16,484 bases of DNA from Phytoactinopolyspora endophytica (lineage in GTDB: Bacteria > Actinomycetota > Actinomycetes > Jiangellales > Jiangellaceae), in the NCBI RefSeq assembly GCF_004138495.1, contig NZ_ML142864.1:38663-55146 (forward strand). The letters are read 5' to 3'. Numbering within the stretch: position 1 is the stretch's first letter; every line of letters begins with the position of its first letter. This document shows positions 3,082-6,083 of this stretch, one piece after another. The notes under the pieces are model-generated. The model was not told where the DNA came from. It saw only the letters and a program-made list of their open reading frames with translations, and did not search any database. Position numbers and translations under genes: made by a program.

Positions 3082-4212
3082 TCAGATGTCCGTCCAGGCG
3101 CCTCGGGACATGACGGATTGAACAGTGAGGTCGTCGTCGAGGAGGACCAGGTCGGCGTCGTAGCCCTCGACCAGGGCGCCGGTGCGGTGGCCGAGTCCGA
3201 GGAGCTGGGCGGGTCGCGTCGATGCGGCATGGACCGCTTCTTGGACGGAAAGACCGACCTGTTGGACGGCGAAGCGGAACGCCGCGTCCATGGTCAGGGT
3301 GCTGCCGGCGATCGACCCGCCGTCGGCCAGGCGTGCGACGCCGTCCGCGACGCGGACCTGGCGGTCGCCGAGCAGGTAGTCGCCGTCGCCGACGTCCGTG
3401 GCCGCCATGGCATCGGTGACCAGAACGACGCGCGCGGGGCCGGTTGAGCGGCAGGCGTGCGCGGCGACGGCGGGATGCAGATGGACGCCGTCGAGGATGA
3501 GCTCCACCGTGACCCGTTCGTCCTCCATGAGCGCCACGATCGGGCCAGGGTTCCGGTGATGGATCGGCGCCATCGCGTTGAACAGGTGCGTCGCGACCGT
3601 GGCGCCTGCGTCGACAGCATCGCAGATCACGTCGTACGCGCCGTCGGTGTGCCCGATAGCGGCGATCGCGCCGGCGTCGACGATCCTGCGGACCGCGTCC
3701 AGCCCGTGGTCGAGCTCCGGGGCTAGCGTGACCATCCGGATCCGGCCCCGCCCCGCCTTGAGGAGCCGGTCGACCGTGCCCGGCTCGGGGGCGGCGAGCT
3801 TGTGCGCGCTGTGCGCGCCTTTGCGCTCCGCAGAGATCCACGGCCCTTCGAGATGCACACCGGCGAGCAGCCCGTCGTCGACCAGTTCGGACAATGCCCG
3901 CACGTCATGCTCGAGTTCGTCCGGGAAGCCCGTCACCAGGCTGGCCATCAGCGTCGTCGTGCCGTGCCGGCGATGCGTGGCGGCGAACGCCCGCGCCTTG
4001 TCCGGCTCGCCGCCGACGACCGTCGCCCCGCCGCCGCCGTGGCAGTGGATGTCGACAAAGCCGGGCAGCAGCCAGCCGGTGGCCGGGTGATCCGGGGGAC
4101 GTGGCGGAGGGCCGCTGCCCAACGCGGCGATCCGGCCGTTCTCGACGTCCAGCCAGCCATCGGCCACCGGCCCGTCGGGTGTGACGATGGTGGCACCAGC
4201 AATCAGTGTCAT
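3082..4212 (-). CDS. nagA: N-acetylglucosamine-6-phosphate deacetylase
   Basis: This 376-aa amidohydrolase converts GlcNAc-6-P to glucosamine-6-P and acetate in cytosolic amino-sugar use and cell-wall recycling. The N-terminal part gives the small beta domain strands. DIHCHGGGG carries H56 and H58, HLEGPW carries the metal-ligand E122, GHTD carries H188, THLFNAM carries H209, DGVHLHP (241-247) is the substrate loop, and LVTDAM carries the catalytic D267. SIAGSTLTM lies near the C-terminus. ATG 4212 matches the family start (MTLIAGATIV...). The frame is open to 4293, but that extension lies inside the divergent gene. There is no SD; TACGGT ends 7 nt upstream, so the transcript is probably leaderless. 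No nagB or PTS gene is adjacent, so its sugar source is not shown here. Confidence 0.95.
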   Translation of the reverse strand: MTLIAGATIVTPDGPVADGWLDVENGRIAALGSGPPPRPPDHPATGWLLPGFVDIHCHGGGGATVVGGEPDKARAFAATHRRHGTTTLMASLVTGFPDELEHDVRALSELVDDGLLAGVHLEGPWISAERKGAHSAHKLAAPEPGTVDRLLKAGRGRIRMVTLAPELDHGLDAVRRIVDAGAIAAIGHTDGAYDVICDAVDAGATVATHLFNAMAPIHHRNPGPIVALMEDERVTVELILDGVHLHPAVAAHACRSTGPARVVLVTDAMAATDVGDGDYLLGDRQVRVADGVARLADGGSIAGSTLTMDAAFRFAVQQVGLSVQEAVHAASTRPAQLLGLGHRTGALVEGYDADLVLLDDDLTVQSVMSRGAWTDI

Positions 4213-4218
4213 GGTCAA

Positions 4219-4237
4219 GACCGTAGCCGGTACGGTC
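4219..4237. promoter_or_regulatory. Mirror-image divergent leaderless promoter, nagA / hotdog gene
   Basis: GACCGTA (4219-4225) and TACGGTC (4231-4237) form a perfect 7-bp inverted repeat with spacer GCCGG. On each strand the repeat supplies TACGGT (TANNNT), ending exactly 7 nt before an ATG: 4244 on plus and 4212 on minus. Neither gene has an SD. The symmetry extends outward to GTCATGAC around the plus start and its counterpart near the minus start. One bound dimer could cover both -10 boxes. Confidence 0.65.
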
Positions 4238-4243
4238 GTCGTC

Positions 4244-4939
4244 ATGACGCTGACCATCGCTTCTCGCTTTCGAGGGCCTGTGGGATCCGGCAACGGCGGG
4301 TACGTGTCCGGGCTGGTGGCCGCCTATGTCGGGGACGATGTCGTGACGGTGACGCTGCGGCGGCCACCACCACTCGACGTCGCCTTGGACGTGCGCAACG
4401 ACGATGACGCGGTGCGCCTCGTCCAGGAGGGCGAGACGGTGGCGGAGGCGGTTCCTGGCGACGGCGGAGCGCTCTCGGCGGTACCGCAGGTCAGCGTGGC
4501 TGAGGCGGCGGACGCGTCTAAGACGTACGCGGGCCTGCATAAGCATCCGTTCCCCGAGTGTTTCGTCTGCGGACCGAGCCGGGACCCTGGAGATGGCATG
4601 AGTCTGTTCCCAGGGCGGCTAGGCGACGGACGGACGGCGTGTGTCTGGGTGCCTGCCGCGGATCTTGCCGACGAGGCCGGCCGGGTGGCGGCGCAGTTCG
4701 TGTGGGCGGCGCTCGACTGCCCGGGTGGGTGGAGCGCACCGATCGAAGGCCGGCCGATGGTACTGGGGCGGATGACGACGGGGATCGATGTGCTGCCGAT
4801 GGTCGGCGAGCGGTGTGTGGTCATGGGCCGGCTGCTTGGATCGGAGGGCCGCAAGACCTGGACGGCTACGACGGCGTACGGGGCTGACGGCCGTGTACTG
4901 GGGCGGGCGCACGCCACCTGGATCGTGGTGAAACCGTAG
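4244..4939 (+). CDS. Conserved protein with thioesterase-like (double hotdog) features
   Basis: This 231-aa cytoplasmic protein starts at ATG 4244 (MTLTIASRFRGP). An upstream ATG at 4181 would run into nagA and is rejected. The N-terminal RFRGPVGSGNGGYVSGLVAAYV (8-29) resembles the first helix region of acyl-CoA-thioesterase-like hotdog proteins (4HBT_3 type). The middle has a two-cysteine motif, FPECFVCGPSRDPGDGMSLFPG (103-124, C106 and C109). The second half has WAALDCPGGWS (154-164), a typical start of a second hotdog unit, and ends in a strand pair (GRAHATWIVVKP). The likely role is binding or hydrolysis of an acyl thioester, but no catalytic residue can be assigned. It shares a symmetric promoter with nagA, suggesting co-regulation. 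It is followed by almost 400 bp without a conventional gene. Confidence 0.75.
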   Translation: MTLTIASRFRGPVGSGNGGYVSGLVAAYVGDDVVTVTLRRPPPLDVALDVRNDDDAVRLVQEGETVAEAVPGDGGALSAVPQVSVAEAADASKTYAGLHKHPFPECFVCGPSRDPGDGMSLFPGRLGDGRTACVWVPAADLADEAGRVAAQFVWAALDCPGGWSAPIEGRPMVLGRMTTGIDVLPMVGERCVVMGRLLGSEGRKTWTATTAYGADGRVLGRAHATWIVVKP

Positions 4940-5053: not shown

Positions 5054-5083
5054 TTGCTCTGAACCACGGCGGCCGTCTAGCCT
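5054..5083 (+). promoter_or_regulatory. Possible sigma-70-type promoter of the structured element
   Basis: TTGCTC (5054-5059), an 18-bp spacer, and TAGCCT (5078-5083) give a fair -35/-10 pair. A transcript would start near 5090, just before the short ORF's ribosome binding site. No other gene could be served before the hairpin at 5229. Confidence 0.4.
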
Positions 5084-5095
5084 TTTGAGTACACG

Positions 5096-5111
5096 AGGAA
5101 GGAGGTGGTCC
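5096..5111 (+). promoter_or_regulatory. Extended ribosome binding site of the 12-codon ORF
   Basis: AGGAAGGAGGTGGTCC differs at only two of 16 positions from the exact complement of the conserved 16S rRNA 3' end (AGAAAGGAGGTGATCC). This is far stronger than any other SD in the window. The core GGAGG (5101-5105) is 11 nt from the ATG at 5117. Confidence 0.75.
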
Positions 5112-5116
5112 AGCAG

Positions 5117-5155
5117 ATGAATAGCTATTGGACTCGTGAGGTGGCTGCTCGCTAG
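5117..5155 (+). CDS. 12-codon ORF (MNSYWTREVAAR), possible leader peptide
   Basis: ATG 5117 to TAG 5153 encodes MNSYWTREVAAR. The extended SD at 5096-5111 argues that it is translated. Codon choice is unlike the neighbours: 6 of the 11 sense codons after ATG end in T. This suggests that RNA structure, not protein function, constrains the sequence. The stop codon lies between the two CTGCTCG copies (5145-5151 and 5160-5166), so a ribosome at the stop would cover both. Eight further sense codons run to TGA 5180-5182; I see no reason to assume readthrough. No run of one amino acid points to an attenuation signal, although W5 and three arginine/histidine-free stretches can be tested. Confidence 0.5.
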   Translation: MNSYWTREVAAR

Positions 5156-5228
5156 CCGCCTGCTCGACGCAGGACCTGGTGACAACCCGGTTCGCCGGCC
5201 GGTCGGCTGGCAATCTCGAGCAGTCACC

Positions 5229-5302
5229 CGGCCCGTGGGCTCTCAGGGACTAGTCCTCCTGAGCCGTGCCGTGAAGGTGCGGAAGTAGCCCACGGGCCGT
5301 TT
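5229..5302 (+). terminator. Long terminator-like hairpin ending the structured element
   Basis: CGGCCCGTGGGCT (5229-5241) is a perfect 13-bp reverse complement of 5287-5299, followed by TTT (5300-5302). Inside the loop a second stem forms, CTCAGG (5242-5247) with CCTGAG (5258-5263). GGCCGG at 5197-5202 can pair with CCGGCC at 5228-5233, which would open the base of the hairpin, as an antiterminator would. Confidence 0.6.
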
Positions 5303-5328
5303 CATGTCCGGCTCGTGCCCTCATCCAC

Positions 5329-5967
5329 CTAGGGCGCCAACCGCTCCAGGACCCACGCTTCCCCGGCACGGCGGTAGCGCAGACGATCGTGCAGCCTGCC
5401 CAGCCCGCCTTGCCAGAACTCGACAGTATCGGGCACCAAGCGAAATCCACCCCAGAAGTCCGGCAGCGGTACTTCCTCGGGAAACCGTTTCGCCATCGCA
5501 GCGGCTTCCGATTCCAGTTCTTCACGTGAGCCGATGACGGTCGACTGCTGGCTTGCCCATGCGCCAATCTGCGAGTCGCGAGGACGGGTCACCCAATAGG
5601 CCTGGCTCTCTTCCCGGGAGATGGCCGCGGCCGTGCCGCAGGCCACCACCTGTCGTTCCATCGGGAACCAGGGGAAGCATAACGAAGCGTGCGGGTTGTC
5701 GGAGAGTTCCGACGCCTTGCGCGAGCCGTGGTTGGTGAAGAAGACGAAACCCTCGTCGTCTAGTTCCTTGAGCAGCACGTGCCGGCTGCTGGGCACGCCG
5801 TCCCTGGTGGCGGTGGCCAGCACCATGGCGTTCGGCTCAGGCAGGCCCGCGGTCACGGAGTCGTGCAACCAGCTGCGGAACTGGGTGAACGGATCGGCAG
5901 CGGCGTCGGACTCCAGCAGCCGGGTCGATGTGTATCGGCGCCTCATGAGAGCCAGCGTGTTCTTCAC
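5329..5967 (-). CDS. pdxH: Pyridoxamine/pyridoxine 5'-phosphate oxidase
   Basis: This is a 212-aa FMN enzyme that oxidises PNP or PMP to pyridoxal 5'-phosphate, the last step of B6 synthesis or salvage. SSRHVLLKELD (60-70) holds the R and K substrate/FMN contacts. FFTNHGSRKASEL (76-88) is the FMN-binding segment. ASQQSTVIGSREELE (138-152) and the C-terminal block DFWGGFRLVPDTVEFWQGGLGRLHDRLRYRR (170-200) are the family signature, including RLHDR (191-195). GTG 5967 gives an N-terminus that aligns with other PdxH proteins (LALMRRRYT). ATG 5946, seven codons in, is an equally possible start, and neither has a good SD. It is divergent from the citrate synthase and its 3' end faces the structured RNA element. 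Confidence 0.95.
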   Translation of the reverse strand: MKNTLALMRRRYTSTRLLESDAAADPFTQFRSWLHDSVTAGLPEPNAMVLATATRDGVPSSRHVLLKELDDEGFVFFTNHGSRKASELSDNPHASLCFPWFPMERQVVACGTAAAISREESQAYWVTRPRDSQIGAWASQQSTVIGSREELESEAAAMAKRFPEEVPLPDFWGGFRLVPDTVEFWQGGLGRLHDRLRYRRAGEAWVLERLAP

Positions 5968-6083
5968 AGGGCTACTGTTCCATCCCGTGCTCCGCGCTGG
6001 TACCCGACGCACCGCCGGAAGATTTCCGGCCAGTGCATGTATCCAGCGTGAACTGTGGGAAACCGCACATTCAGTACATCAGA

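Follow-up and report, generated by a model that had tools for sequence, protein, structure and literature searches.

The small RNA RF02471 carries a frame-conserved mini-ORF behind a long 16S rRNA complement and probably acts by being read by ribosomes

In leader ORFs of the trp or erm type, translation of a short ORF rearranges overlapping helices. The 6S RNA is a conserved stand-alone RNA that mimics a promoter and is read by RNA polymerase, and the tag ORF of tmRNA is a short ORF with its stop within structure. The RNA described here resembles each of them in part. It has a short ORF lying over helices, as the trp- and erm-type leaders do; in contrast to them, it is stand-alone and lacks a constant downstream gene and any codon or peptide signature. 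Where 6S RNA mimics a promoter, this RNA would mimic the initiation region recognized by the ribosome, a likeness drawn from its 16S complementarity. Like tmRNA, it carries a short ORF that ends in a structured stop; however, no tRNA-like domain was seen, and the ORF is preceded by a Shine-Dalgarno site and opens with a start codon. Dual-function small RNAs such as rnTrpL/peTrpL and RyhB/RyhP also contain a translated short ORF, but those RNAs are reported to have a functional or detected peptide, whereas the peptide of the present RNA is not conserved.

The window analyzed here is a stretch of 16,484 nucleotides from the genome of Phytoactinopolyspora endophytica. A sequence-only reading of it had pointed to a compact element between 5054 and 5305 and had recognized no described family. 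The element does belong to one: with cmscan, positions 5091-5305 of the forward strand match RF02471 (Ms_IGR-5) over model positions 1-184 of 184, at 103.5 bits against a gathering cut-off of 45. In the portions of the literature at hand, Ms_IGR-5 is listed as an RNA-seq validated sRNA in S. lividans (PMC8079986), is one of two sRNA transcription units with an Rfam match in S. avermitilis (PMC8780764), turned up again among the sRNAs of cold-stressed M. smegmatis (PMC10454040), and shows significant ribosome reads on its M. abscessus and M. smegmatis homologues (PMC4974804). The same reading had suggested a stand-alone or dual-function small RNA, an idea that the family match, these sRNA records and the ribosome reads support. 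Where our literature searches turned up the family, the mentions are of listing, mapping and ribosome reads, and these searches gave neither a function nor a mechanism for RF02471; as far as these accounts go, they mention no ORF or 16S match and describe the family as actinobacterial.

We consider it likely that RF02471 is a stand-alone, structured and translated regulatory RNA on which ribosomes dock and whose state is switched by translation. By sequence comparison, the family has a conserved RNA structure, an ORF in phase, an unconserved peptide, complementarity to 16S rRNA and no constant downstream gene. The features to which the text refers are the following.

5054..5083, + strand: promoter-like sequence read from the letters, with -35 TTGCTC (5054-5059) and -10 TAGCCT (5078-5083); the 5' end would lie near A5091
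5091..5305, + strand: the whole RNA element, RF02471 (Ms_IGR-5), from cmscan
5092..5095, + strand: 5' strand of P1, pairing with 5135-5138; 98.2% of cells paired
5096..5114, + strand: SD1, the extended Shine-Dalgarno sequence AGGAAGGAGGUGGUCCAGC; 19 consecutive nucleotides complementary (two G-U) to the 3' end of 16S rRNA
5117..5155, + strand: predicted ORF of 12 codons (MNSYWTREVAAR) and its TAG at 5153-5155; start and stop in phase in 132/132 homologues
5130..5134, + strand: pseudoknot strand a, GGACU, within the ORF, pairing with 5252-5256
5135..5138, + strand: 3' strand of P1, within the ORF, from covariation
5138..5143, + strand: SD2, GAGGUG, whose end lies 6 nt upstream of the last sense codon; GAGGTG in 127/132 homologues
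5140..5151, + strand: 5' strand of P2, in the 3' half of the ORF, pairing with 5217-5228; the first 8 pairs were counted
5151..5211, + strand: P3 arm, predicted by folding, its basal pairs (5151-5156 with 5206-5211) surrounding the stop codon
5217..5228, + strand: 3' strand of P2, from fold and covariation
5229..5299, + strand: P4, the 13-bp 3' hairpin in terminator position, with inner stem 5242-5247/5258-5263, from covariation
5252..5256, + strand: pseudoknot strand b, AGUCC, in the loop of the 3' hairpin, from covariation and outside model R1
5329..6012, - strand: pdxH, convergent neighbor outside the system, TIGR00558 at 257.6 bits

The element is present in a single copy in the 7.6-Mb genome. 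Its distribution was followed with the Rfam model and with a model built here, R1, from an alignment (A1) of 39 of the 61 homologues hit by Rfam. Both were run at stricter filters, with six candidates scored per genome, on genomes drawn evenly from a larger group of the phylum. The Rfam model matched 70 of 396 genomes at E <= 0.001 and R1 140 of 392, with one match each in 139 of the 140; because of the strict filters and the six candidates per genome, copy numbers outside the genome of the window may be too low. The matches extend far beyond the class of the window. RF02471 is nevertheless not universal, since ten genomes of the same class without a match yielded no convincing one under laxer filters either (best E 0.58). 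The distribution of RF02471 exceeds its present family model; as a side observation, only 35 of the 396 genomes pass the Rfam gathering cut-off, which thus misses many homologues that R1 recovers. Upstream of the 5' end, a weak TG..TA...T pattern emerges at -15 to -7 from 129 homologues, in 98% of which the match begins with A.

The most conserved stretch outside the helices is SD1. To measure its match to 16S rRNA, the 3' tail was taken from the 16S gene of the genome of the window (contig 43, antisense strand) and applied to all 132 homologues. The match measures 15-22 nt in 131 of them and 12 nt in the remaining one, against 5-8 nt at seven predicted start sites of the window, to which pdxH contributes two alternatives. 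Moreover, the SD1 core AAGGAGGTGRTYC occurs only twice in the genome assembly, at SD1 and antisense to the 16S gene. Folding with ViennaRNA, which does not model the pseudoknot, gave SD1 a mean unpaired probability of 0.38 over the 132 homologues, a value that does not mark it as clearly open.

This complementarity bears on the possibility that RF02471 is an ordinary base-pairing sRNA, in which translation of the ORF would set only stability or turnover. The family is catalogued as an sRNA, and translated sRNAs are known in general. However, with SD1 as the stretch most strongly kept outside helices, the obvious pairing partner is 16S rRNA, and we think this explanation unlikely.

Returning to a ribosome-docking RNA, its structure is supported by covariation. 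The element folds to a minimum free energy of -114.9, compared with -88.6 +/- 4.9 for shuffled versions (z -5.4; none of 200 shuffles as low). We aligned 98 of the 133 Actinomycetota loci together with L166 and L168 (alignment A2), dropping near-duplicates by hand before counting, and fitted them to P1-P4 of R1; the pseudoknot lies outside that model. Across these 100 homologues, 77.1% of the cells of P1, P2, P3, P4 and the pseudoknot are paired, against 56.7 in shuffles, and two-sided changes occur in 839 cells; shuffling gives 312 +/- 17 such cells and sliding the partners 233-283. The shuffles leave the relatedness of the sequences in place, and one of the five measures compared with them showed no excess: pairs having at least one two-sided change numbered 32, vs 31.7 in shuffles.

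In P1, CG, AU and GC each occur at the three inner pairs, and at a fixed register all four pairs form in 117 of 132 loci, three in 12 and none in 3; with partners swapped, four pairs form in 15.9%. The pseudoknot, GGACN in the ORF with NGUCC in the P4 loop, is paired in 87.9% of cells. Its two-sided changes fall at the two outer of five pairs, the middle three being nearly invariant, in a count with 14-15 gapped rows and one row family, misaligned by one nucleotide, that was retained and lowers its support; the variants seen by eye are GGACA/UGUCC, GGACU/AGUCC, CGACC/GGUCG and GUGACC/GGUCAC. The two halves of P2 are paired in 77.6% and 91.1% of cells, and 5 of its 8 counted pairs show two-sided changes; P4 has such changes at 13/13 outer and 6/6 inner pairs, with 75-83% of cells paired. 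P3 is poorly supported in homologues (38% of cells paired), and as aligned it leaves the A position of the stop codon unpaired in 92 of 99 cells. In the Rfam entry, which has the same sequence and length as the RNA of the window, P4 is also drawn; however, its structure line draws a helix between part of SD1 and the end of the ORF, keeps the 3' strand of P2 single and lacks P1, P2 and the pseudoknot, all supported here. The Rfam consensus structure needs revision.

P1, the pseudoknot and the match to 16S rRNA had escaped the sequence-only reading. The features that it did list are present where it placed them: the ORF at 5117, CTGCTCG at 5145-5151 and 5160-5166, CGAGCAG at 5217-5223, GTCACC at 5223-5228 and the 13-bp hairpin base at 5229-5241/5287-5299, and both the ORF and the 3' hairpin (P4) are conserved in homologues. 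Its scheme of competing stems holds for the first CTGCTCG, whose pairing with CGAGCAG/GTCACC is the conserved P2, but not for the second copy, which by eye lies in the variable P3 arm. That arm also contains (by eye) the inner GGTGAC and the GGCCGG proposed to open the hairpin, and conservation was seen for neither. We rejected the second CTGCTCG and the GGCCGG opener as functional parts because their region is variable. The compensatory changes by which that reading proposed to judge the stems were found, as covariation in P1, P2, P4 and the pseudoknot. It had also reasoned that stems lost between conserved flanking genes would speak against the element, and the homologues display the reverse, with stems kept and flanks changed.

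On a separate point, an asymmetric internal loop between P3 and the 3' strand of P2 (about 5212-5220) contains a GAAUCC-like motif, which was matched, with a loose pattern, in 106 of 132 homologues; it is a possible candidate for a protein or ligand site.

The overlap of the ORF with P1, the pseudoknot and P2 is an attenuator-like anatomy, and the sequence-only reading had seen in it the logic of a translation-controlled attenuator. Under this explanation, translation of the leader would choose between the 3' hairpin, which indeed sits in terminator position, and read-through into a downstream gene. The neighbors were surveyed with tblastn against 133 loci, 61 with at most 4 kb and 72 with at most 1.5 kb of flank per side; genes were named by eye, except pdxH and citrate synthase (NCBIfam). 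Counting the window, pdxH lies near the RNA in 13 of the 133 loci (convergent in 7, not so in 6) and citrate synthase in 12, and in 6 loci the pair is inverted relative to the RNA. A FABP-like gene was found in 10 of the 133 loci, always downstream and convergent; a ligA-like gene in 14, downstream and convergent in 13 and upstream in one; and a gyrA-like gene in 9, each time upstream of the RNA and on its strand. In this tblastn survey of 133 loci, no constant gene was found downstream of the RNA.

A crude gene finder, which on the window itself missed the ORF at 4181-4939 and put 1853-2365 on the wrong strand, called, among 126 loci, an opposite-strand next gene in 73, a same-strand one in 49 and none in 4. 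Thus a same-strand next gene, as an attenuator would need, was called in 49 of 122 loci, but a convergent one in 73 of 122. In the window, there is no same-strand regulated gene downstream: pdxH is convergent and points the opposite way, as had been noted from the letters. The ORF, in addition, is not rich in any single amino acid. We therefore rejected a cis-acting attenuator of pdxH or citrate synthase, as both the strand and the inconstancy of these neighbors argue against it; of the earlier proposal the anatomy stands and the control of a downstream gene does not. For attenuation in general, with downstream genes as variable as these counts make them, we regard the explanation as very unlikely. 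Because the flanking genes differ between lineages and the RNA is kept, we take the element to be a stand-alone RNA gene and not an attenuator of a neighbor.

One upstream gene does recur. A YgfZ-like gene was found in 27 of the 133 loci, always upstream and divergent and in several distant families (for example, L010-L018, L041, L044 and L218-L254). Its recurrence indicates that the context of the RNA is not random; being divergent, it is out of reach of read-through. It is possibly the ancestral neighbor of the RNA. The forward-strand ORF at 4181-4939, between nagA and the RNA gene, has no NCBIfam match.

The mini-ORF of the stand-alone RNA was scored in 61 loci hit by Rfam and in 71 scorable held-out loci that R1 alone detected, omitting L259, which is cut by a contig end; the held-out loci were absent from the construction of R1, yet many share families with loci used there. 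Homologues were anchored on GGAGG of SD1 and GAGGTG of SD2. A stop lies exactly five codons past GAG in 59 of 61 Rfam-hit and 60 of 71 held-out loci, and one nucleotide earlier in 2 and 11, respectively, and so is present at every scored locus (132/132; UAG 101, UGA 26, UAA 5). Starts were sought 9-18 nt from GGAGG, as AUG, GUG, UUG or the near-cognates CUG, AUU, AUC, AUA and ACG. A start in phase with the stop and open to it was found in 61/61 and 71/71 loci, while the other two phases had one in 0 and 2 of 61 and in 0 and 9 of 71. The start window had initially been 9-17 nt, giving 60/61 and 69/71, and L046, L232 and L250 depend on its widening. With AUG, GUG and UUG only, the start is in phase in 43/61 and 62/71 loci, and any other phase has one in at most 1/71. 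Homologues also use CUG, AUU and AUC, and their ORFs range from 10 to 17 codons. With the fold (z -5.4) and this phase test, we rejected a chance origin of the element.

Since the stop begins 15 nt past the start of SD2 in 119 loci and 14 nt in 13, the frame shifts relative to the conserved RNA elements between families, and an ORF that is open, started and terminated is kept all the same. As an observation on the 13 loci (L064, L069, L230, L236, L238, L244, L248, L249, L255 and others), the ORF with the closer stop crosses the conserved elements in another frame, and in several of them a plain terminator-like hairpin seems to replace the complex 3' hairpin. In the part of the ORF before the conserved elements, mismatch rates at codon positions 1, 2 and 3 are.418,.487 and.434, and 325 codon changes are synonymous as against 2130 non-synonymous, both measured on non-independent sequence pairs; purifying selection on amino acids was not seen among the 132 homologues, nor was any codon-position bias. 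Because the in-phase ORF is kept while its codon changes are mostly non-synonymous and its positions unbiased, these comparisons indicate that the frame and the stop are selected and that the amino-acid sequence is free.

It follows that a functional micropeptide gene, in which the RNA structure would be secondary, is highly improbable. An ORF in phase in 132/132 scored homologues would fit such a gene, and Rhodobacterales-type loci do have an N-terminal stretch in common; however, the codon positions are unbiased, 2130 of 2455 codon changes are non-synonymous, and from family to family the frame moves relative to the conserved GGACN and GAGGUG. As selection on amino acids was not seen, we rejected this candidate. 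We give practically no credence to structure only, with the ORF as a by-product of conserved RNA motifs, because, although P1, the pseudoknot and P2 constrain much of the 3' half of the ORF, starts stay in phase despite its variable length, all three stop codons are used, the A of the stop is mostly unpaired in P3 (92/99 cells) and other phases carry a start in only 0-13%.

What is kept across very distant bacteria is the frame and not the peptide, and the RNA therefore probably exerts its function when ribosomes read it. We propose the following course for such a ribosome-docking, translation-switched RNA. The ribosome would dock through SD1, the near-complete complement of the 16S rRNA 3' tail, using the whole of the match. 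It would initiate at the start codon, which is weak in some families, and read 10-17 codons. Since the strands of P1, the ORF/hairpin-loop pseudoknot and P2 lie inside the ORF, reading it must unzip all three, and translation would thus act as the switch. At termination, the last sense codon would be in the P site, with SD2 (GAGGUG) ending six nucleotides upstream. This spacing is that of an ordinary Shine-Dalgarno sequence to its start codon, so that SD2 may slow the terminating ribosome and hold it at the stop. The RNA would then exist in two states, one folded and free of ribosomes and the other opened and ribosome-held, which we infer to have different outputs, acting in trans. In this scenario, the selected property would be that of being read (frame, length and stop) and not the peptide.

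A catalogued sRNA would thereby gain a mechanism: selection retains the match to 16S rRNA and, in the mini-ORF, frame, length and stop, but not the peptide. If this is true, bacteria maintain an RNA dedicated to being read, whose translation is an end in itself, and ribosome availability, start-codon stringency or recycling would become approachable through one gene.

Relatives also appear outside Actinomycetota. A scan of named genomes for SD1 followed by GAGGTG gave at least 118 loci, the taxon counts being lower bounds. In at least 72 of them, a stop lies exactly five codons past GAG; 59 are titled Actinomycetota and 13 are not, the latter bearing the titles Nitrospinae, Sumerlaeota, Rokuibacteriota, Acidobacteria, Bryobacterales, Deltaproteobacteria, Krumholzibacteriia, Lujinxingiaceae, Zixibacteria, Myxococcales and, in two cases, 'bacterium'. 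To these 13 we added L175 (Planctomycetaceae), which has the second form with the stop one nucleotide earlier, and L113, with a stop one codon later. These 15 relatives were hand-picked for their stop, not for their start, and all 15 are MAG contigs, so that mis-binning is possible. An AUG, GUG or UUG start is in phase in 15/15 and in either other phase in 0/15; with near-cognates, 3/15 have a start in one other phase. For 8 of these relatives the terminator search reported an intrinsic terminator, and it missed the hairpin and T run visible in L127, L140 and L154.

Among 12 of these loci (L083, L113 and L183 not included), Rfam RF02471 exceeds its cut-off in one, L168 of Zixibacteria, at 55.9 bits. 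R1 matches 9 of 11 at E <= 0.021, with a best value of 3.5e-13 (L166), scores that are inflated because the loci were chosen by SD1 and GAGGTG; L113 and L141 gave no R1 match at E <= 1. P1 is unsupported in the 15 relatives, with 3.13 pairs against 3.12 when partners are swapped. The pattern itself is expected by chance in so large a collection, so the layout of the ORF, and not the pattern, is the evidence. A control on 11 viral contigs bearing the pattern found no in-phase start on any of them, so these 11 gave no sign of an RNA of the RF02471 type in phages. A stop lies at an expected place in 4 of them (three nearly identical) without an in-phase start, and thus a stop alone is weak evidence.

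It is tempting to speculate, although we hold it to be doubtful, that RF02471 is one branch of an ancient bacterial RNA class of several phyla, the ribosomal counterpart of 6S RNA. Such an RNA would imitate a perfect translation start and capture ribosomes through the whole 16S tail; its mini-ORF, fixed in frame and free in sequence, would park them at a second Shine-Dalgarno sequence by the stop, and the RNA would report on or buffer free ribosomes, initiation stringency or recycling.

Two further layouts were observed. A sister-like RNA, with the same SD1 and a GUG start, is present in at least 23 loci titled alphaproteobacteria or Proteobacteria (L070, L074, L077, L082, L086, L088, L090, L091, L095, L103, L108, L112, L114, L117, L122, L128, L135, L142, L159, L161, L162, L171 and L185), hosts that we take to be mostly Rhodobacterales genera. 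Neither RF02471 nor any other Rfam family matched the element in the two loci tested, L077 and L114. Its ORF has 18 codons in every one of the 22 complete loci (L082 is truncated), with a variable C-terminus and UAG, UGA and UAA stops in 10, 6 and 6, respectively. With a loose pattern, a CCAYCUCC-like stretch that could pair with SD1 was matched downstream in 16 of the 23 loci, and TTGACA lies upstream in five loci inspected. In L096 and L097, both of SAR86, a similar layout has an AUU-started ORF of 14 codons ending GGAGGUGCCUUCUGA, together with an intrinsic terminator.
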